Virus record (IMG/VR): IMGVR_UViG_3300022871_000032 | Span: 1-46,026 of that record | Length of the DNA stretch: 46,026 nt | Source of the DNA: a virus | Strand: one strand, 5' to 3' | Shown: positions 1 to 46,026 of the stretch, one piece after another | How positions within the stretch are numbered: position 1 is the stretch's first letter | Layout: each line of letters starts with the position of its first letter | Made by a program: the position numbers and the translations under genes | Notes under the pieces: model-generated | Database searches by the model: none | Told to the model about the DNA's origin: nothing | The model's input: the letters and a program-made list of their open reading frames with translations, nothing else

Positions 1-36
1 ACAACCACCAGAGAAATTAAAACGTCTTGTTAACAT
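1..36 (-). CDS. N-terminal fragment of a second allele of the tail nozzle gene
   Basis: Reading left from the ATG at 36 gives MLTRRFNFSGGC before the window ends. The complete nozzle gene at 44466-45917 begins MLTRRLDSSGGV with the same upstream DNA. The first five codons are identical at DNA level and the next seven differ, but the two Gly residues are kept. The edge of the contig therefore seems to come from a related strain with a diverged nozzle gene. It is too short to say more. Confidence 0.6.
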   Translation of the reverse strand, partial: MLTRRFNFSGGC

Positions 37-145
37 ATTAAGGCCTTATAATTCCAGAACGATTGGTTGATCCTCTAGAAATAGAGAAGCCCATCGGTTT
101 GGTCTTATCTTTATAAGTGTTTTCAGATATCATATTTAAGAAACC
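20..145. repeat. Terminal direct repeat, left copy (circular overlap)
   Basis: Bases 20-145 are identical to 45901-46026, a 126-base exact repeat at the two ends of the window. It covers the end of the adaptor gene and the first codons of the nozzle gene, so joining the ends restores an unbroken gene order. This is best read as an assembly overlap of a circular or circularly permuted molecule. A true short terminal repeat of a linear genome cannot be excluded. Confidence 0.9.
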
Positions 146-1922: not shown

Positions 1923-2696
1923 TTAATTTATCTCCTCATCTAATTTTAACTTAAAAGTATCATCTCTTATTTCTGTACCAGTTATTCTTAGTAGACTATA
2001 ACCACACTTAGTCAGATAAGCGTTTTTAGCTTTATCGTGTTTTTTTACTCTATTTAAAGAATGCCAATAGTCTCCATCTGCTTCTATTACTAAATTAAGA
2101 GAAGGGATATAGGCATCTACTAAGAATTTCCCATTAATTAATCTTTGCTTCTCGAATAAGATACCCCTATTTTTAAGTTCTTCGTAGAGTTTCTTCTCTA
2201 TTGAGGTAGGCTCTTTTGCGTCTTGTTGTTTTTTTACCCCAAGTAAACCAATTTTTTGGTAATAATCTTTACTCCTTAGGTTTTCTTTTTGATACTCGCT
2301 TAATTTTCTTTTATGTTCTTTAGAAAATGGTTTACGTTTTTTTCCCTTAAACCAAGAAGCACAACCAGTTTTAGCCACACTCATCCTTTGTCTAGTTTCT
2401 TTAGATACCTCTTTTCCTATAAGAGACTCACTTATATGACTTCTATGTTCTTCGGTAAAAATCTTGCCTTTCCAATATGAACATTCTTCTTTGGTAGGGA
2501 AATGGTGATTTTTAAGGGCTTTTTTAGATAATTTCCAACCGCTCCCGTGTTTATATGTTGTTTTTTTTCCTTTATTCCAAGGAGAATCACCTTTTTTAAA
2601 TCCATTAAAAAGACCAAAACATTTTTGAGAACAAAACTTTCTATTATTTATTCCTTTAAAAGAAGTTTTACAGTTTAAACAAATTTTATTTACCAT
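1923..2696 (-). CDS. Homing endonuclease, zinc finger + NUMOD3 + DUF559 nuclease
   Basis: 257 aa. An N-terminal zinc finger has Cys6, Cys9, Cys22 and Cys26. The middle (about 70-140) has several NUMOD3-type repeats (FTEEHRSHISE, FSKEHKRKLSE) that bind DNA modularly. Residues 165-250 form a DUF559/Vsr-like PD-(D/E)XK nuclease with LVDAYIP and VIEADGDYWHS carrying the acidic residues. It lies freestanding between the fibre gene and a small virion gene, abutting the fibre gene by one base. Its nuclease half is almost the same as that of the gene at 15647-16438, while the DNA-binding half differs. Probably a selfish mobile gene. The start is preceded by a hairpin around the ribosome site. Confidence 0.8.
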   Translation of the reverse strand: MVNKICLNCKTSFKGINNRKFCSQKCFGLFNGFKKGDSPWNKGKKTTYKHGSGWKLSKKALKNHHFPTKEECSYWKGKIFTEEHRSHISESLIGKEVSKETRQRMSVAKTGCASWFKGKKRKPFSKEHKRKLSEYQKENLRSKDYYQKIGLLGVKKQQDAKEPTSIEKKLYEELKNRGILFEKQRLINGKFLVDAYIPSLNLVIEADGDYWHSLNRVKKHDKAKNAYLTKCGYSLLRITGTEIRDDTFKLKLDEEIN

Positions 2697-4394: not shown

Positions 4395-6647
4395 CTAGGC
4401 AATTGTACCGACCTGAAGATATAATGGGCCCGTACCCTCAATATCAACCATTACAAAGTGTGTAGTTGTAAGCGATTTAGCAGCAACGGCTTCAATAGCA
4501 TTACCAGTACCAACAGTAGCTTCAAAAGTGACAAATGGAATATTTACATCATCTTGTTTAAGAGCCATACATGTGGCTACACCTGTCGTGTGTGTTTGTT
4601 CTATCCTAAGTACCGCACTATCTGCATTACAAGCTGAAGCATTAGAGACTAGTTCCATTACTGCCTTATCAGCAGCTAAGACACCAGTGGTTGTAGCAAC
4701 AAAAGCTGAATTTGTGGTTGGAGCAGATACTATATTAATAGCTGTCATATCCAAAGCTGCACAATCTATCTGCATGGCAGATGGACTATTAGTTGCAGTT
4801 ACACCTTCAGCACTTAGTCTAAGTAATGAGCCGTCAGCATTTAATGCACCAGCTGCATCTATTTCTAGACAAGCTTTGTCAGCACCAATTATTCCACCTG
4901 AAATTATCTCTACGATACTTCCAGTACCATTTACAGAAGTAATAGTTGTTGTGTCAGTGTCAGTAAGAACGATATCACCTAAATCTAGAGTTAAGGCTGC
5001 GGTTCCAGCTGCTTTACCAGCAATCGTGGTTTCACCGTATCTTTGAACGGTAAATTGTGCAGTATCATCATCATTACAATTAATGTAATTACCATTTCCT
5101 TCGGTCATTGTTGCACCGCCATTGTCTAGATAAAGCATGTCACCCGTGGTCAAAGCATCCATTCTGACTAAAATACCTTTTGGTCCAGTTGTGGCTGCTG
5201 CCATTGTTACCTCGACACCTATAGCTGTTCCAGTCGTAACTGAATCTATTACTATATCTAATCCTGTTGGAGTTGAAGTTGTGTCGCCTGCTGAAACCAA
5301 TTCCAAGATCATTCCATCATGGGTAGCTGCATTAGCGTTTATCTTCATCATCGCTCCAGTTGTGGAAACTGATGTGCTGCTAATATCAACTAAGTCTCCA
5401 GTCGTAAGAGTATTATTGACTACTACTAATGAACCTGCGTTATCTGCATCTGTAATATTTACCGAACCATCAACTAATGTTAAGTCACCAACGGTCATAT
5501 CTATATGTCCAGATGACAAAAGAATGTCGCCTGCAGTTAAAACCAAAGCGTCGGTTCCAGAAGAGCTACCAGTAATAGTTGTTAAACCAGCTACTCCCAC
5601 CGAGAAATCTGAAGTATCGTCATCGTTACAATTAATGTATTTTCCATCTCCAGTTATACTTCCACCCCCATTATCCAAGTAAAGCATATCGCCTGTAGTA
5701 AGGGCATCCATAGTAACAGAAATGCCTTTAGCTGTAGTCGTAGCTCCTGCCATAACAACGTCAATACCTTTTGCTTCGCCAGTTGTTACATCGTCAATTG
5801 TGAGAGATATTCCAGTTGGGGTTGCAGTCGTGTCTCCAGCCGAGATTAATTCAAGAATCATTCCATCGTGAGTAACCGCATTAGCGTTGATTTTCATCAT
5901 TGCACCTGTAGTCGTAATTCCTGTTGAAGAAATACTAACTAAGTCTGCTGTTGCTACTGAATCGTTTACAATCGTAAGAGTTGTGGCTGCATCTGCGTCT
6001 GTAATAGAGAGAGAACCATCACTCATAGTCATATCGCCAGCTGTATATGTGAAAGCCCCGTCAGTCATGGTAAGTCCACCACTAGTTAAGGTTAAAGCAC
6101 CGCTAGTTAGGGTTAAAGCACCATCTGAAAGAGTTACTGCACCGACTGTAACAGTAAGAGCACTGTCGGTATTTGCACCCATTTCTACTTCCATACCTAT
6201 TGGCGTGCCAATAGTTTCTGATCCAACTGAAATTTCTAAGAATTTGACTGTACCCGAAGTGCTATGAGCACCAGTAGAGTTAATGTGAAAAACAGAAGCA
6301 TCGTGTGTACTAGCAATTACACCACTTTTGGTGATTAAAAGACTTCCACCAGTAGTAGTTTGAGTATCAGTTAAAGTAACCGCACCTGCGTCTACAGCAA
6401 TTTCAGCACCGCCATTATAGGCAGCATCTAAAGAACCTGCAGCTGAGCCATCAATGTTACTCCATCCCGAAATCTGATATATCCTATACTTCCCCAAAGT
6501 TGAGTCGTAGTAACTCTGTCCAACTGTAGGAGAACTAGGAGCAGAACTTAGAGATGAAACTGTCAGGCTTCCTGTCGAATTTGATAGATCCAAATCACCG
6601 TCTATTCTGACGTTGTTTTGAAATCTTGTTATTTTTCCACTAGACAT
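4395..6647 (-). CDS. Long repetitive fibre / head-fibre-like protein
   Basis: 750 aa, very rich in Thr, Gly, Ala, Asp and Ser with almost no Lys or Arg. The N-terminus has a phage-type motif (GQSYYDSTLGKYRIY). Residues about 170-210 are short LT(S/D)G(A/G) repeats like a beta-solenoid. Residues about 210-392 and 393-565 are a long tandem duplication that shares GAMMKINANA, THDGMILEL and MDALTTGDMLYLDNGG. The rest repeats the same beta pattern. It is directly downstream of the major capsid gene, so it may be a capsid fibre or a tail spike. No catalytic site is seen. Confidence 0.6.
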   Translation of the reverse strand: MSSGKITRFQNNVRIDGDLDLSNSTGSLTVSSLSSAPSSPTVGQSYYDSTLGKYRIYQISGWSNIDGSAAGSLDAAYNGGAEIAVDAGAVTLTDTQTTTGGSLLITKSGVIASTHDASVFHINSTGAHSTSGTVKFLEISVGSETIGTPIGMEVEMGANTDSALTVTVGAVTLSDGALTLTSGALTLTSGGLTMTDGAFTYTAGDMTMSDGSLSITDADAATTLTIVNDSVATADLVSISSTGITTTGAMMKINANAVTHDGMILELISAGDTTATPTGISLTIDDVTTGEAKGIDVVMAGATTTAKGISVTMDALTTGDMLYLDNGGGSITGDGKYINCNDDDTSDFSVGVAGLTTITGSSSGTDALVLTAGDILLSSGHIDMTVGDLTLVDGSVNITDADNAGSLVVVNNTLTTGDLVDISSTSVSTTGAMMKINANAATHDGMILELVSAGDTTSTPTGLDIVIDSVTTGTAIGVEVTMAAATTGPKGILVRMDALTTGDMLYLDNGGATMTEGNGNYINCNDDDTAQFTVQRYGETTIAGKAAGTAALTLDLGDIVLTDTDTTTITSVNGTGSIVEIISGGIIGADKACLEIDAAGALNADGSLLRLSAEGVTATNSPSAMQIDCAALDMTAINIVSAPTTNSAFVATTTGVLAADKAVMELVSNASACNADSAVLRIEQTHTTGVATCMALKQDDVNIPFVTFEATVGTGNAIEAVAAKSLTTTHFVMVDIEGTGPLYLQVGTIA

Positions 6648-8163: not shown

Positions 8164-8967
8164 TTAGTTTTCCTCTTTCATAGATTTATAATATTTGTCT
8201 CCAAATTTCTTCCCTGCCTCCAATTCGGCTTGGGAATACTTAGGCTTCCCCGATTTTTTACCTTCGGTTGAAGACTGGCTTGAAAAACCAGCTTGATTTG
8301 CGTCTAGTCTCTCAAGATAGGCTTCGTCTTTACCTTCTTGTATCGCAGCTTTAGGGTCTATTGTTAAATAAGCTCTGTCAACGGCTTGCTTATAACTCAT
8401 CCCAGTTTCTTCCAAGGTTCTGGCAACTTTGCCAATTTTCTGTCTAATAGCGGATCTTTCCTTCTTTGTTGTCTTTGTAGAAAACAAATCTGGATGCTTA
8501 TCTTCAAAAGAGGACAAAACTCCTAGTTTTGCTTTTCTCTCTCTCTCTTCAAAGCCTTTTACGATCTCATTGACAGGTTCTAAAGCCTTGTCTATCTGCT
8601 GTTGTGCTAATGTGCCTGAATCTTGATTAGTAGACTCACCCTTTCGAGCTTTATCTATTTCAGCTGAGATTTGTGGATTAATCTTAGCTAACTTTTCAAG
8701 ATTCTCCATAGCTAAAGACAATTTATCGCTATCTGTCTTAAGTTTCTGGTATTCTCTGGTCGAATCACTGTATCGCTTTTCATAATCAACTTCGCCTTTC
8801 GGTTCTTTTGATTCATCTAAGTAATCAGAAGCTTTATCTTCTGTTGATTCAACTTTTGAATCTTTGGATTCATCTAGGTTTTCCTCTTCGGAGCTAGAAT
8901 CTTCTTTAATGGTTTCTGAGGCGTTAGCCATTTTGGCGGTCTCGTCTTCCTTATTTTTTGTTGTCAT
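8164..8967 (-). CDS. Scaffolding protein
   Basis: 267 aa. The N-terminal third is strongly acidic (Glu, Asp, Ser, Lys). Residues about 60-150 are a long coiled coil (REYQKLKTDSDKLSLAMENLEKL). The C-terminus is basic (KKFGDKYYKSMK), as expected for the part that binds capsid protein. This acidic-coil-basic layout just before the capsid genes is typical of phage scaffolds. The first ATG at 8967 has no Shine-Dalgarno sequence and follows a small hairpin; a second ATG at 8931 has AAGGAAG upstream and may be the real start. Confidence 0.7.
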   Translation of the reverse strand: MTTKNKEDETAKMANASETIKEDSSSEEENLDESKDSKVESTEDKASDYLDESKEPKGEVDYEKRYSDSTREYQKLKTDSDKLSLAMENLEKLAKINPQISAEIDKARKGESTNQDSGTLAQQQIDKALEPVNEIVKGFEERERKAKLGVLSSFEDKHPDLFSTKTTKKERSAIRQKIGKVARTLEETGMSYKQAVDRAYLTIDPKAAIQEGKDEAYLERLDANQAGFSSQSSTEGKKSGKPKYSQAELEAGKKFGDKYYKSMKEEN

Positions 8968-11809: not shown

Positions 11810-11838
11810 ATTATAAACTATTAACTTTGTTTAACCAA
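11810..11838 (-). promoter_or_regulatory. Promoter with start on the ATG (leaderless)
   Basis: On the minus strand TTGGTT (11838-11833), a 17-base spacer and a perfect TATAAT (11815-11810) are followed six bases later by the ATG at 11803. Transcription would start at or next to the A of ATG. Confidence 0.5.
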
Positions 11839-14112
11839 TCCTAAATTTTGTAAAGCAGTAATCACATTGTCTACCGTCGCTCCTGCACCTGTTGCTAAAA
11901 CCGCCTGAACAATAGGAGTTGAACCATAAAAAGCTAGTTTCTGTCCTGTCGCCGTACCGATTTTAGTACCCGTGGTTGTATTTAAGACAATGTTCTTAGC
12001 GTCAGGAATAATAAAATTGCTTCCGCTGGGGCTTATGGTGAGGTCACCATTAGTATCTACTGCAAAGATAGCGTTGTCTGTAGCGTCAAAGCTTAACTTT
12101 AATTGGTTACCTGCTTTAAATATCTCTAGTTTAGTATCTGGGTCTGTAACCCCGATGCCGACGTTTCCATCTTTATCTACCACTGTTAAAGCTGTTCCAG
12201 CACTATTCTGCCATTCTTGAAGGTTAGCTACCTGAGTAGCATGAGCTTTAACAACAATTGCCTTATTAGTACCAGTTGCATCATTAAAAGTTACAGTATC
12301 TTCAAAATCAGTTTGGACTGTTCCAGTTCCAGAGTTTTTAACATTAAAAGTTTGGGTAGTTCCAACACCTGCTTGTAGCGATATATTATCAACATAAACA
12401 GTTTTTACTGCTTTTATTTGTACTCCGTAACTTTTGCTAGATGCTACTCCTGTTAGCGTTCCTGATAATCTATACCAGCCACCACCAACGCTAGTGTAAC
12501 TTGTTGAGAGAACAGCACTGTCATACCATAATTCTAAATCTGCCAAAGTAACCGCACTACCATCCGTATAAGCATAAGCAATCAAAGTATAGGTAGAAGT
12601 ATCTCCCACATTAGCCGACTGCACTATTCTAGTATCTATAGGGCTACTATTAACTATTTTCATAGATGAAGTACCAGAGTATTTAATAGAAGTAGAGTGA
12701 GAGAGGTCTACGTGATCACTGGCGCACCGAAACCCAATATGGTAGTACTGAGTAGCTGGCGTATTATGCAAATTAACGGCAAACACACCCGCAGTAGCCG
12801 TATCAGCCCAATTCGCGCCCCGACGGAACGCATAAGGACCGCCGCTGGCGGAACCTTGATAGTAGCGCCCTACACCGTGATCAGCATTCCAAGTATTGTT
12901 GCTGGGCAAATAATCATCACTATCACCATTACCAGCCCCGGTGCCATTAAAATCTGTGACCGTGGTCCATTCCACCCAAGCACTGGGATTGCCCACCGGC
13001 TTATCCACCCCCATAATAGTCCCAGCAGTCCAATGCCAAACATTACCGGAAAGATCCCAAACTTCATTCCCATTGCTTAAAACTAGCTTAGCTTTTTCAT
13101 CTCTGCCGGTGCCATAATCCGGATCAGTACTAGCGTTGTAACCAACACTAGTGGCTTCACCCACATTACCCCGGTATAAACCGCCTCCAGCGGCTACTGT
13201 GGAACCAATCACGCCATCAGCCCAGTTGGCTGTTTGAGCTTCTACATTACGAGCAATAGTCATCCATTCATCATTGGTAATTAAATGGTAGCCGGTTGGG
13301 CAAGCACTAATAGCTTGGGTTTGGGTAATGTGGACAATTGGAGCCCCGTTAGCGGTAGAAACGACCTTAGCACTATCAAAAGTTAGATCACGATAGTCCA
13401 GCCCCAAACCAGAATTAGCTACGGCACTAGCCTCAACGGCTGTATTACCTTGTCCGTCACCACTAGAGTCATATTTAGCCTCATACTTCATGGCGTAGAA
13501 AGCGCCACCTGTACCAAAGTCTGGGTCTCCAGGTACTAATATCCAATCTCCATTGGCGTTGTTTTCTTCTGTGTTACCAATATCCCAGCCTGTTAAATCA
13601 GTTTCAAAAGTTCCATTAGTTATTTTATTAGTTGGTTCTTCACTAAATATATCTAGGGTAACAGTATTAGTTCCCCACAATAGCGAAGCTCTCTTAGTTG
13701 AGCCGTCTTTAAGAACGATTGCGTCCTTATCTACAACTCCATTAAATATTGTTTGTGCATTAGTCGTATCTACATTAAAGACTACGGTATTGTCTGCCTG
13801 TTGTATTTGAAAGAAGGTGGTGGAGTTTGTACCGATCATTGTGTCGCCTGTGACTTCAACATAGTCTAAATCTAATGCACTATCAGGAATACCAGTAAAA
13901 TTTGTTCCTGTAAGAGTAGGAGTAGAGCCACTTGAAACATCTTGGTCAATAAAAGCTGAAATGTCTATACCGTCAACTGTTTCAGTTCCAGTCATAACTA
14001 TATTTCCACCATTCATAGTTAAATCACCAGTCATCGTGTCGCCAGTGATATTGACAAATTCACCGTTTAAAAACCCTACTCCTGGTGGCATGTATTCTAC
14101 GCCTCTCTCCAT
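11821..14112 (-). CDS. Receptor-binding fibre with nested FGE-sulfatase/C-type-lectin domain
   Basis: 763 aa. Residues 1-160 are fibre shaft repeats (NITGDTMTGDLTMNGG). Residues about 165-182 (NGTFETDLTGW) look like the first strand of a carbohydrate-binding jelly roll, which resumes at about 470 (STSIKYSGTSSMKIV) and ends near 590. Between them, residues about 184-466 are an FGE-sulfatase/C-type-lectin fold: FYAMKYEAK, CPTGYHLITNDEWMTIA, WDLSGNVWHWT and GFRCAS. The last 40 residues of that insert match the pattern of variable regions in diversity-generating retroelement target proteins. The C-terminus returns to fibre repeats. Likely an adhesin for host recognition. There is no Shine-Dalgarno sequence. 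Confidence 0.7.
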   Translation of the reverse strand: MERGVEYMPPGVGFLNGEFVNITGDTMTGDLTMNGGNIVMTGTETVDGIDISAFIDQDVSSGSTPTLTGTNFTGIPDSALDLDYVEVTGDTMIGTNSTTFFQIQQADNTVVFNVDTTNAQTIFNGVVDKDAIVLKDGSTKRASLLWGTNTVTLDIFSEEPTNKITNGTFETDLTGWDIGNTEENNANGDWILVPGDPDFGTGGAFYAMKYEAKYDSSGDGQGNTAVEASAVANSGLGLDYRDLTFDSAKVVSTANGAPIVHITQTQAISACPTGYHLITNDEWMTIARNVEAQTANWADGVIGSTVAAGGGLYRGNVGEATSVGYNASTDPDYGTGRDEKAKLVLSNGNEVWDLSGNVWHWTAGTIMGVDKPVGNPSAWVEWTTVTDFNGTGAGNGDSDDYLPSNNTWNADHGVGRYYQGSASGGPYAFRRGANWADTATAGVFAVNLHNTPATQYYHIGFRCASDHVDLSHSTSIKYSGTSSMKIVNSSPIDTRIVQSANVGDTSTYTLIAYAYTDGSAVTLADLELWYDSAVLSTSYTSVGGGWYRLSGTLTGVASSKSYGVQIKAVKTVYVDNISLQAGVGTTQTFNVKNSGTGTVQTDFEDTVTFNDATGTNKAIVVKAHATQVANLQEWQNSAGTALTVVDKDGNVGIGVTDPDTKLEIFKAGNQLKLSFDATDNAIFAVDTNGDLTISPSGSNFIIPDAKNIVLNTTTGTKIGTATGQKLAFYGSTPIVQAVLATGAGATVDNVITALQNLGLVKQS
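12718..12840 (-). other. Candidate DGR-style variable region inside the fibre gene
   Basis: This codes for residues about 425-465: FRRGANWADTATAG, VFAVNLHNTPATQ, then YYHIGFRCA. The same order of words ends many C-type-lectin target proteins of diversity-generating retroelements. TAC TAC CAT (Tyr-Tyr-His) is one adenine change per codon away from AAC or AAT codons. I see no reverse transcriptase and no second copy of this sequence in the window. Confidence 0.45.
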
Positions 14113-15646: not shown

Positions 15647-16438
15647 TTAATTAGCCATACAAATTGATAATTTTTTTTTAAAACTACCATTATTAATCTC
15701 TGTTCCTGTTAGTCTTAATAGATTATAACCACGCTCCAAAAGATACGTATTTTTAATCTTATCTTTCTCAATACTTTTAGGTAAAGAATGCCAGTAGTCT
15801 CCGTCTGCTTCTATAACTAGGTTTAAGTTGGGGATATAGGCGTCTACTAAAAATCTACCATTAATAAGTCTTTGCTTCTCGAATAAAAGGCCTCTAGTTT
15901 TTAACTCTTCATAGAGTTTTTTTTCTATTGAAGTTGGACCTTTGGATATTGCTTGTTTTTTAAGAGACAGAGCAAGTAATTTTTTTTGCCTTATACCCCT
16001 CTTAAGTCTCGTTGCCTTTCCTTTTTCAGTAAATAGTTTAATATTTTTTGGCAACTTACCACTCTTCACCTTACTCATTTTCTCCTTAGTTTCTTTAGAT
16101 AACTTTTTACCCATCATCCATTGACCAAAACCTTTTTCTTTAGCAACTTTACTCATTTTTTCCTTTACCTCCTCAGAACGCTTACTTCCACTATTATCAA
16201 ACCTTTTTGCCATATTTCTTACGGCTTCTCGATTTCTTTTGCCTTCTGCCCATTCTTTTTTTCTTGCTTCACTCATGTTTTTTTTAGCCCTTAAAGACAT
16301 TTTTACACCCTTTTTAGATGTACTTATCTTTTGTTTGGTCTCCTCTAAGTGGTGTTTTCCCAACCAATGCCTAGCATTATTTTCACTTATTTTTCTCTTT
16401 GTTTCTTCTGAATGTTTAAATCCCGCTAATCTTGGCAT
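15647..16438 (-). CDS. Homing endonuclease, NUMOD3 repeats + DUF559 nuclease
   Basis: 263 aa. The N-terminal two thirds hold six or so NUMOD3-like repeats (HSEETKRKISE, HHLEETKQKIST, LSKETKEKMSK) for DNA binding. Residues about 170-255 are a DUF559/Vsr-like nuclease with LVDAYIP and VIEADGDYWHS. This half is close to identical to the gene at 1923-2696 at DNA and protein level. It sits between the TerL nuclease ORF (14 bases away) and a small gene, and no Shine-Dalgarno sequence is visible. Probably selfish DNA aimed at the terminase locus of related phages. Confidence 0.8.
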   Translation of the reverse strand: MPRLAGFKHSEETKRKISENNARHWLGKHHLEETKQKISTSKKGVKMSLRAKKNMSEARKKEWAEGKRNREAVRNMAKRFDNSGSKRSEEVKEKMSKVAKEKGFGQWMMGKKLSKETKEKMSKVKSGKLPKNIKLFTEKGKATRLKRGIRQKKLLALSLKKQAISKGPTSIEKKLYEELKTRGLLFEKQRLINGRFLVDAYIPNLNLVIEADGDYWHSLPKSIEKDKIKNTYLLERGYNLLRLTGTEINNGSFKKKLSICMAN

Positions 16439-19006: not shown

Positions 19007-19165
19007 ATGATAAATAATATAGATCAAAACAATCCTTATAATAATATAGATATTGATGATATCATAGGCGAATTATCAGCTTTGAAAGAGGCAAAAATGT
19101 TAAATGTTGATAGAGATATTAATAATCAATTAGCAGAAACAATTATAAATTTAAAGGATAACTAA
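19007..19165 (+). CDS. Early small protein 1 (52 aa), shared C-terminal tail
   Basis: Starts MINNIDQNNPYNN; acidic and Asn-rich with a helical second half (ELSALKEAKML). It ends INLKDN, encoded by the linker element A1. First gene after the early promoter, with no Shine-Dalgarno sequence before its ATG. No family recognised. Confidence 0.5.
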   Translation: MINNIDQNNPYNNIDIDDIIGELSALKEAKMLNVDRDINNQLAETIINLKDN

Positions 19166-19170
19166 AAATG
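19143..19170 (+). repeat. Linker element A1
   Basis: First of six copies of the class A linker, consensus TTATAAATTYAAAGGAYAAY followed by TAAAAATG. It holds the last codons and stop of the upstream gene, the AAAGGA ribosome site and the ATG of the next. Other copies: 19369, 19551, 19827, 20101 and 20956. Confidence 0.8.
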
Positions 19171-19374
19171 AATATAATAACAAGACTACCAGCTAAACCA
19201 AACCCAAAACTATTCAATGGTAACTTATATATTGAAATTTACTCATTTGCTAGTTGTCATTATGCAAGGCTAGTTGATGATATGGGGTTCGTACACAAAG
19301 ATAACATTGGATATAACCATACAAGCAATACATATCAAGACGCCTTGAAATTTGCTTATAAGTATCAATTATAA
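19168..19374 (+). CDS. Early small protein 2 (68 aa)
   Basis: Basic N-terminus (MNIITRLPAKPNPKLF), then an aromatic-rich domain (LYIEIYSFASCHYARLVDD) and a helical end. The AAAGGA of linker A1 precedes the ATG; linker A2 provides its Leu-stop. It could be a small beta-alpha fold; no family recognised. Confidence 0.55.
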   Translation: MNIITRLPAKPNPKLFNGNLYIEIYSFASCHYARLVDDMGFVHKDNIGYNHTSNTYQDALKFAYKYQL

Positions 19375-19396
19375 ATTTAAAGGACAATTAACAATG
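19369..19396 (+). repeat. Linker element A2
   Basis: Class A linker between early genes 2 and 3. Here the TTATAA is read in another frame as Leu-stop of the upstream gene, so the element works in more than one reading frame. Confidence 0.75.
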
Positions 19397-19573
19397 AATA
19401 TACTTAATAACAGTTACTATGAGGTCTTAACAGATAACCTATACAAAGCAAGACAAGACTATTTTAATAAGTTTGGCAAGAATGAGATATTTAACAGCGT
19501 ATATCCTAACAAGCTATATCAAAACAAACAGTTAAATAAAAAATACCCGCTTATAAATTCAAAGGATAATTAA
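19394..19573 (+). CDS. Early small protein 3 (59 aa), shared C-terminal tail
   Basis: I place the start at 19394 (MNILNNSYYEVL), directly after the AAAGGA of linker A2, and not at an upstream ATG in the previous gene. It is Asn- and Tyr-rich, basic, and ends LINSKDN, encoded by linker A3. No family recognised. Confidence 0.55.
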   Translation: MNILNNSYYEVLTDNLYKARQDYFNKFGKNEIFNSVYPNKLYQNKQLNKKYPLINSKDN

Positions 19574-19578
19574 AAATG
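19551..19578 (+). repeat. Linker element A3
   Basis: Class A linker; codes INSKDN-stop for early gene 3 and gives ribosome site and ATG to early gene 4. Confidence 0.8.
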
Positions 19579-19815
19579 GAAATAACAAAACAACAACTCA
19601 AACAATATTATCAAGACGGTTTAACAATGATTTGGCAATATAAAACACTTTATCAAATTAATTATAGCCAAAACACGGGAATAGGTTACAGAAAAATAGC
19701 AAGGAAGCCAAAAACTGACTTCTTGGGTGTAACTCGAAGGGGGAGATATAAAGCGATGAAGCCCGATGAAGCAATTACATTTTTAGGGGTTAATTATCAA
19801 AGATTATCAATTTAA
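19576..19815 (+). CDS. Early small protein 4 (79 aa)
   Basis: Basic, with MEITKQQLKQYYQDGLTMIW, then a Tyr-rich middle and a RKPKTDFLGVTRRGRYKAM segment. The profile suggests nucleic acid or host-protein binding, but no family is recognised. Ribosome site from linker A3. Confidence 0.55.
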   Translation: MEITKQQLKQYYQDGLTMIWQYKTLYQINYSQNTGIGYRKIARKPKTDFLGVTRRGRYKAMKPDEAITFLGVNYQRLSI

Positions 19816-19826
19816 TAACTAAACAA

Positions 19827-19854
19827 TTATAAATTCAAAGGATAACTAAAAATG
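19827..19854 (+). repeat. Linker element A4
   Basis: Class A linker downstream of the stop of early gene 4. It gives the ribosome site and ATG to early gene 5, so here it acts as a spacer and not as coding DNA. Confidence 0.8.
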
Positions 19855-19983
19855 AACCAACAACAAACAGATCAAGTAAACCAAGTTATAAAAGATAATC
19901 CAGATGTACCAGCCGAAATATTCGATATTGAAGCAAGCCCCGAAGTAGCTGAAATGTATCGAGATATGGAGAGCCAACTATGA
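19852..19983 (+). CDS. Early small protein 5 (43 aa)
   Basis: Acidic peptide starting MNQQQTDQVNQVIKDNPDVP and ending MYRDMESQL. It overlaps the next gene by ATGA. Ribosome site from linker A4. No family recognised. Confidence 0.5.
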   Translation: MNQQQTDQVNQVIKDNPDVPAEIFDIEASPEVAEMYRDMESQL

Positions 19984-44465: not shown

Positions 44466-45917
44466 TTAGCTTTCCTTCGTTTCTAATTCACTAACCTCTG
44501 ATTCAACCGTATAACCATCTAGTCTCCACTGGTTTACCCCACCAGATTCGCTAAATTTCATTTTTAGTTCTCTACCAAAGGCATCTATATCCTCGTCTGC
44601 AAAATGCTTTTTACAGTAGCTGTCTTCTAGATCTACTGCTGTAGAGTAGTCACCACCGTCTACCGCAAACTGCCAGTCAACATCACCTAAACTATCATTG
44701 CCAAAAAAGAAAACACTTTGCATAGTATTGGTTGTTTCTGGACCAGAAGGCCAGTTAATAGTTTCTATGTTAGTTGCTATAGCTGTAGTGTCATCTGTCG
44801 TACCGCTATTCCAAGTAAACATTTCCCCATTAGCATCGCCAAAAGAGAGTAGTTTTGCTCCACTGGATATGTAATTTGAAAAGGCTTGTGGTTCGTCTGC
44901 TAGTGTGTGGTAAGTCCAAAGGTTTTGTGGAATATCGTAATCTATCATCACTTTTTGTAAAGCTGCACTGTCACCTGGCAGGGCGGATGTAAGAGTGCCA
45001 ACATAGAAGAGGGCATGGTCTCCATCTATACCACCGCAAATATCACCTAAGTTAGCTTGATTTACTCTATCTATAATCGGCTGGATAGGGCGTGAAATTA
45101 TCTGGGGAGCACCACCTACTGACATGGCTACTCCTTTGCGTGAATAGAAGAGAATAAGATTCTCATCTAGAACAACGGACTCTTGGCTGACTGCCCCAAG
45201 TTTCCACGAGACAGGTTTCAAGTTAGTTTGGTTGTAAGTTCCATCATATCTAAACATAGAGTTTTCTTTAAATACAATTAAGTAAGTTTTGTTTTTGGCT
45301 AGGGCGGTAATATGATCTCCGTCAGAAGTCTCCACATAAAACCAGTCATTCGTGGTATCCCACGTAATCGATCCGTCACTGGCTGGTAGAGACGAATAAT
45401 AAAAACGAGATGGATAGTCTGTACCACCCACATCACAATAAGCAACATACAATCTATTACGGTAAGACTCTATAAATTTAGCTTTTGGAGCAGAGGTTAC
45501 ATTAGTGGATGTTGACCAAGTTGTGCCATTGTAGCTACGAGTAGCATCTGCATAATTTACTAAGAAAAAAGAATCTACGAAGTCTGTTCCACGTGCCTTA
45601 TATCCAGCTGTCAGGTTTTGAGCTTGTTGTGTCCATGTTCCAGCCACGTTTACGTATACTTCCGACTCTGAGGCAGCATTACAAACGGCAATGTGTTTTC
45701 TAGTTGGGGTAGTTCCGTATTGATAAGTCGCATTCATTAGAATGTCTTTACCTGCTGTCATAGCAGTACCTATCTGTGTATAACCTAGACGTTTTGTAAA
45801 AGAGCCTATGGTTGGGGAGATAACATTTTGAGCCCTAAGAACCTGAGTCTTGTCCATTAAGTAGTGATTACTCTTTATTTGTACTCCACCGCTAGAATCT
45901 AAACGTCTTGTTAACAT
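44466..45917 (-). CDS. Tail nozzle / beta-propeller tail protein
   Basis: 483 aa. Starts MLTRRLDSSGG and has repeated blades of about 45 residues with conserved words such as FVDSFFLVNYADATRSYNG and NRLYVAYCDVGG, then ILFYSRKGVAMSVGGAPQIIS. This is the pattern of short-tail nozzle or P22 gp10-like proteins. It follows the adaptor on the circle (TAAGG ribosome site). The first five codons lie in the terminal repeat; the seven after them differ from the second allele at 1-19. Confidence 0.6.
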   Translation of the reverse strand: MLTRRLDSSGGVQIKSNHYLMDKTQVLRAQNVISPTIGSFTKRLGYTQIGTAMTAGKDILMNATYQYGTTPTRKHIAVCNAASESEVYVNVAGTWTQQAQNLTAGYKARGTDFVDSFFLVNYADATRSYNGTTWSTSTNVTSAPKAKFIESYRNRLYVAYCDVGGTDYPSRFYYSSLPASDGSITWDTTNDWFYVETSDGDHITALAKNKTYLIVFKENSMFRYDGTYNQTNLKPVSWKLGAVSQESVVLDENLILFYSRKGVAMSVGGAPQIISRPIQPIIDRVNQANLGDICGGIDGDHALFYVGTLTSALPGDSAALQKVMIDYDIPQNLWTYHTLADEPQAFSNYISSGAKLLSFGDANGEMFTWNSGTTDDTTAIATNIETINWPSGPETTNTMQSVFFFGNDSLGDVDWQFAVDGGDYSTAVDLEDSYCKKHFADEDIDAFGRELKMKFSESGGVNQWRLDGYTVESEVSELETKES

Positions 45918-46026
45918 ATTAAGGCCTTATAATTCCAGAACGATTGGTTGATCCTCTAGAAATAGAGAAGCCCATCGGTTTGGTCTTATCTTTATAAGTG
46001 TTTTCAGATATCATATTTAAGAAACC
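45901..46026. repeat. Terminal direct repeat, right copy (circular overlap)
   Basis: Exact copy of bases 20-145. The identity stops at 45901: the bases just left of it do not match bases 1-19, although both encode similar residues. See the partial gene at 1-36. Confidence 0.9.

Follow-up and report, generated by a model that had tools for sequence, protein, structure and literature searches.

A phage fibre carries an FGE/C-type-lectin cassette of DGR-target type nested in a jelly roll, probably swapped in and now probably frozen

Introduction

The variable regions of the catalogued DGRs are located at the C-termini of their target proteins (PMC8144416). This placement has been put down to the cis-acting homing DNA, which presumably has to be non-coding (PMC8144416). 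The phage BPP-1 requires a GC-rich hairpin directly past the variable region (PMC3240598). Loss of this hairpin severely impaired homing (PMC3240598, PMC12875486), and homing was not abolished in PMC12875486. The BPP-1 protein Mtd is a phage receptor-binding protein with a C-type-lectin surface made by the DGR (PMC8144416, PMC3240598). TaqVP of Thermus aquaticus (5vf4, PMC6328139) is a DGR variable protein with an FGE/C-type-lectin fold. Clade 2 of the DGRs, found in Patescibacteria, is almost entirely cellular (PMC8144416).

Here we describe a fibre gene in the IMG/VR virus record IMGVR_UViG_3300022871_000032. The whole stretch of 46,026 nucleotides was analysed and is called the window below. 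The fibre contains a cassette that resembles TaqVP in its fold, but TaqVP is part of a DGR, whereas this phage has neither RT nor template. The variable region is internal and nested, in contrast to the C-terminal regions of the catalogue. DGR clade 2 is the candidate kin of the cassette, as the nearest FGE relatives are patescibacterial and have template repeats and RTs nearby. Compared with the targets of clade 2, the target-type cassette here sits in a phage fibre and the machinery is missing. The cassette can also be likened to Mtd, although BPP-1 has its own RT, template, and hairpin, and the window has none of the three. The C-terminal half of the domain that surrounds the cassette folds like CBM35, CBM16, CBM6, and the EclA lectin, except that the first loop here and in relatives holds a whole domain of about 275–600 residues.

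Results

Record and Missing DGR Machinery

Self-alignment of the record showed a repeat of 126 bp at its two ends (Table 1), and the record looks circularly closed. No RVT_1 match was found by Pfam anywhere in the record, and in the self-alignment the variable region occurred only once in the window. The absence of the RT and of the template repeat is probably real, because the end repeat makes the record look circularly closed. The genome thus has neither of these two parts of a complete DGR. For host assignment, the portal protein was compared with Patescibacteria, which gave two weak matches only.

Other repeats were observed in the genome. The DNA of window 1941–2234 is 75% identical to 15668–15961. 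The former falls within ORF 1923–2696 and the latter within a NUMOD3/DUF559 homing-endonuclease-like gene (15647–16438); judged by their sequences, these are probably two related intron-type endonuclease genes. An internal duplication (5000–5397 and 5552–5946, 69% identical) lies in the 750-aa ORF 4395–6647, which had no match in Pfam or PHROGs. An element of 36–47 bp occurs in several copies (83–97% identical) at 19137–19867, amid small ORFs, and the copies are perhaps repeated promoters.

Table 1. Parts of the fibre gene and end repeats of the record, in window coordinates
Feature	Coordinates	Strand	Basis
Fibre gene, 763 aa	11821..14112	-	ORF; both ends have phage-fibre relatives in IMG/VR
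Motif NKITNGTFETDLTGW of the first jelly-roll strand (socket, N half)	13585..13629	-	also precedes the inserts of L040, L225, L226, L189, L238, and L239
FGE/C-type-lectin cassette, fibre residues 189–463 (275 residues)	12724..13548	-	Pfam, profile, fold, G+C segment, identity to host DGR targets
Variable region core RGANWADTATAGVFAVNLHNTPATQYYHIGFRC	12724..12822	-	codon-by-codon alignment with 15 host template repeats
Cassette tail ASDHVDLSH	12697..12723	-	in common with FGE-bearing jelly rolls (ASDPVDLS / ASDPVAISQS), by alignment
Jelly-roll remainder, C half of socket, starts STSIKYSG	12322..12696	-	tree, AlphaFold, Foldseek
Distal fibre repeats (LQEWQNSAGTALTVVDKDGNVGIG...)	11824..12321	-	many IMG/VR fibres; Patescibacteria surface proteins L225 and L226
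End repeat copy 1	20..145	.	self-alignment, 126 bp, 100%
End repeat copy 2	45901..46026	.	self-alignment

Fibre Gene and Nested Cassette

The fibre consists, in order, of a phage-like N-terminal region, NKITNGTFETDLTGW, the FGE cassette, the jelly-roll remainder, and the distal repeats. One relative, L027, has 87% DNA identity over window 13603–13809 in the N half, after which its contig ends. The whole fibre had no match among named phages, nor did the FGE part among plasmids.

Fibre residues 251–364 matched the Pfam family FGE-sulfatase (E 2.9e-5), above the family cut-off. A profile of the insert and its relatives matched SUMF2 (1.7e-7), FGE enzymes, and TaqVP (8.4e-5), and TaqVP was also the top PDB fold match of the cassette. 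A catalytic formylglycine-generating enzyme is defined by paired active-site cysteines. The cassette has only two cysteines, about 190 residues apart in the sequence, and these do not appear to make such a pair.

The AlphaFold model used (32 rows, mean pLDDT 66.9) replaced a first one (17 rows, 59.6). In it, the FGE part and the C-terminal jelly roll fold as domains. The pLDDT of the jelly-roll remainder is about 70–92 and that of the first N-terminal strand is about 35. Foldseek matched the C-terminal jelly-roll half to CBM35, CBM16, CBM6, and the EclA lectin. By sequence, the jelly roll matched no Pfam family, and a profile of FGE-free jelly rolls gave only weak, unrelated-looking matches among PDB sequences. 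The reading of the FGE cassette as nested inside a split jelly roll holds on sequence grounds, because the model leaves the NKITNGTFETDLTGW strand at low pLDDT; the nest recurs in many homologues.

The G+C content of the insert is 49.4%, compared with 37.3% for the genome and 46.4% for the highest 828-bp stretch elsewhere in the record. The maximum-likelihood G+C segment is 12695–13533 (log-likelihood gain 14.1), with its breakpoints at the cassette ends.

The sequence-only reading had described a nested FGE/C-type-lectin domain at 12715–13563, richer in G+C than its surroundings, with a DGR-style variable region and with no RT or template repeat in the genome. Its coordinates were right to about 20 bp. 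The fold agrees with the Pfam, profile, and TaqVP matches, the composition and the missing machinery were confirmed, and the nested position is upheld by the sequence and by the homologues. Structure prediction, from which confirmation of the nest was expected, supported the FGE domain and the C-terminal jelly roll and left the N-terminal strand uncertain.

Relatives in Patescibacteria and Phages

Relatives were sought in IMG/VR, in GTDB genomes, and in Patescibacteria by order, class, and phylum. In these scans the nearest cassettes were in Patescibacteria. About ten FGE-bearing proteins have the same nest (L040, L138, L189, L227, L228, L229, L233, L234, L014, and L016). L040, from another phage, has 48% identity over fibre residues 128–679, and the host protein L189 has 50% identity over residues 140–580. 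L189 is a protein of 1537 aa; its N-terminus is hydrophobic and TM-like, and it contains repeats of fibronectin type. L227, L228, L229, L233, and L234 are similar. The identity of the cassette to the host DGR targets L189 and L228 is 58–60%. The sequences suggest that the FGE nest did not originate in this phage; surface proteins of Patescibacteria and fibres of other phages have the same nest.

RTs adjoin several of the patescibacterial FGE targets, with template repeats nearby. The mismatches between variable region and template fell at template adenines in L015 (20/20), L138 (10/10), L191 (16/16), L192 (9/9), and L011 (16/18), and likewise in the nested targets L229 (13/13) and L233 (9/9).

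Some assemblies are interrupted within variable regions, by N in L138 (~8882) and by a scaffold gap/N in L228 (about 4811–4817), and the contig end of L235 (G475) and the contig start of L236 also fall there. Such interruptions are what a mixed population would produce. The nested FGE gene of L014, in a Shapirobacteria genome, contains a single in-frame TGA (8604–8606) at the glycine of GNVWEW, which may be a nonsense mutation, a sequencing error, or recoding.

DGR Signature of the Variable Region

Eleven codons that are AAY in most of fifteen equal-length host template repeats were defined as hot codons. In the window they read AAT GCT GAT ACT AAT CAT AAT ACT TAC TAC CAT; all 11 are NNY, and eight have changed from AAY. 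The hot codons of the phage protein L040 are also NNY in 11 of 11 cases.

When the hot codons were compared with the closest template, L228, the first and second bases differed at 9 of 22 positions and the third bases at 1 of 11. The pattern was reversed in the other 22 codons, with differences at 4 of 44 first and second bases and 13 of 22 third bases. Hot and other codons differed at Fisher p 0.004 and 0.007 against this template, the templates being from other genomes and the sequences homologous and so not independent. Templates L252 and L237, which with L228 make up the three closest, show the same base-position pattern. Differences at third bases are the pattern of normal divergence and those at first and second bases that of adenine mutagenesis of AAY, and the pattern at the hot codons therefore identifies the variable region as the product of a DGR. 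The sequence of the window variable region thus points to descent from a DGR target through adenine-directed changes, in line with the sequence-only reading. A simple test of adenine against non-adenine mismatches reached p 0.012 at best (L228). All templates are too distant for this test to carry much weight, and the within-codon base-position test is clearer.

For L138 and L235, the template repeat in the host continues into the same TGYGCCAGTGAT as the cassette tail. As a check for synonymous homogenisation, synonymous identity in the variable region was 10/17 for L040 and 13/23 for L189, compared with 49/131 and 57/131 elsewhere in the cassette; these counts are too small to establish homogenisation. 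Window 12799–12810 and the variable region of L138 both read TGG GCT GAT ACG, where the L138 template reads TGG AAT AAT ACG; this is chance or shared descent. When the exact sequence that precedes the variable region was looked for in IMG/VR, no second viral contig with the same flank was found.

Hairpin and Diversification in Trans

The C-terminal host targets L011, L122, and L192 have a hairpin past the variable region. An in-frame GC hairpin lies at about the same distance in nested targets, 46–49 nt past the GFRC codons. Of the ten nested relatives with an FGE, six have it (L040, L014, L138, L189, L227, and L228). The stem is GGCCGC-GGA-GCGGCC in L014, L138, and L228, and GGCCGC-GAA-GCGGCC in L227. 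The L189 stem, GGTCGC-GAA-GCGACC, shows a compensatory change, and that of L040 is 7 bp. In all but L040 the hairpin codes for GRGAAG, GREAAG, or GREATG. Codon shuffling gave p values of 0.002 to 0.064 for the individual hairpins, which are not independent. The coding hairpin is possibly a homing signal inside coding sequence.

In the window, the 95 nt that follow GFRC contain no stem of 5 bp or longer, and the FGE-free jelly rolls have no hairpin either (9/9). By the same rule a perfect hairpin is missing in the verified DGRs L015, L191, L229, and L233. A hairpin as a universal DGR requirement was rejected on this ground, and its absence in the window is not decisive for the same reason.

With moderate confidence, the sequence suggests that the variable region is now frozen. 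Alternatively, it may be diversified in trans, by the cDNA of a host DGR homing into the phage fibre during infection. The intact reading frame and the NNY codons, despite no local RT or template, are consistent with this, and nested relatives occur in hosts that carry TR and RT. At its 3′ end, the variable region is near-identical to host templates (TTTCGGTGYGCCAGTGATCA), almost base for base; homing would need such a match, so this also fits. We consider diversification in trans unlikely, as the window is without the hairpin that most close nested relatives keep, and the loss of which badly hits homing in BPP-1 (PMC3240598, PMC12875486). In addition, the best template differs from the window at 13 of 67 non-adenine sites, and the sample of patescibacterial genomes searched held no near-identical template. 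The narrower scenario, in which the variable region is retained by the phage as a recipient and the DGR of a patescibacterial host diversifies it during infection, is slightly less probable again. If it were true, the receptor head of the phage would follow the mutagenesis by which the host varies the proteins on its own surface. The sequence-only reading had left the choice between fixation after transfer and diversification in trans; fixation is favoured by the missing hairpin and by the template search it had suggested, and it is not proven.

Chimeric Origin of the Fibre

Phylogenetic analysis of the C-terminal jelly roll grouped the window with the FGE-free proteins L225, L226, L230, L231, and L232 (support 100/99). 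All ten FGE-bearing jelly rolls, including that of phage L040, were on the opposite side of this tree. In the FGE tree, the window fell inside the clade of host and phage FGE domains (96/96). The jelly roll of the window has 50–59% identity to FGE-free and 35–47% to FGE-bearing jelly rolls, and it has the 5-residue gap and the TRxTxxKY-like start of the FGE-free clade. The joint ASDHVDLSH/STS at 12696/12697 is at most 2 bases from the G+C breakpoint at 12695. In the alignment, ASDHVDLSH is of the FGE-bearing type (ASDPVDLS) and STSIKYSG of the FGE-free type.

The same jelly roll occurs in the host protein L225 (2456 aa) and in two IMG/VR records, L238 and L239, where it contains an insert of about 500–630 aa, called LamG-like here by eye, as Pfam gives no match. 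These sequences show the fibre to be a chimera, with the jelly roll of the LamG-insert clade and the FGE of host-type DGR targets. Since the FGE lies in a jelly roll of the LamG-insert clade, the cassette would have been swapped into an existing socket. As the same jelly roll has either a LamG-like or an FGE insert, one socket seems to take different heads in bacteria and phages. This swap is read from one phage genome, which cannot date it. It may also be that the two halves of the jelly roll, and not the cassette, were the parts exchanged.

A less probable explanation than diversification in trans is that a host supplied the nested module complete, in a single transfer, the G+C step resulting from faster amelioration of, or a different constraint on, the jelly-roll halves. 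Complete nested modules do occur in host proteins at 50% identity. We regard this move as improbable, since the jelly roll belongs to the FGE-free clade by tree, gap, and start motif while the FGE groups elsewhere, and the host modules with the FGE nest show no such G+C step.

Discussion

The evidence is best explained by a cassette that probably came from a DGR target of host type, was swapped into the socket of a phage, and is now probably frozen. Ordinary divergence of an old phage lectin that had at no time served as a DGR target in this lineage, with the likeness due to fold conservation, is the least likely explanation: the final GFRC-like motif is common in FGE/C-type-lectin proteins and, with the codon use of the insert taken into account, 11/11 NNY by itself has p ~0.017, but hot and cold codons are opposite in base position within the same 33-codon stretch against three templates, the nearest relatives are verified DGR targets, and 11/11 NNY is repeated in L040.

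For the swapped and frozen cassette, we propose the following mechanism. The CBM-like jelly roll would act as a socket whose first loop holds a whole second domain, which would make the recognition head of the fibre exchangeable. This socket, usually the holder of a LamG-like insert, may have received the FGE cassette from a Patescibacteria-type DGR target, perhaps by way of another phage. The nine residues ASDHVDLSH at the joint would be the end of the donor sequence, left there by recombination at the shared socket edges. Adenine-directed mutagenesis may have shaped the variable surface before or around the transfer. The variable region most likely now evolves as ordinary sequence, because the phage has no RT, no template, and no hairpin beyond the joint. 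We infer that the cassette is the receptor-binding head and binds a ligand on the host surface, and that the host is a patescibacterium.

The relatives show that variable regions can be internal, nested in a jelly roll and followed by hundreds of further residues, and several of them have a coding hairpin (GRGAAGG / GREAAGG). The findings suggest that heads made by DGRs are exchanged as cassettes, between surface proteins of host type and the fibres of phages, in a fixed socket that also takes LamG-like heads. By this route, phages could acquire recognition diversity that bacteria, probably their hosts, have generated. The bacteria concerned, the Patescibacteria, are tiny, and their phages are little known.
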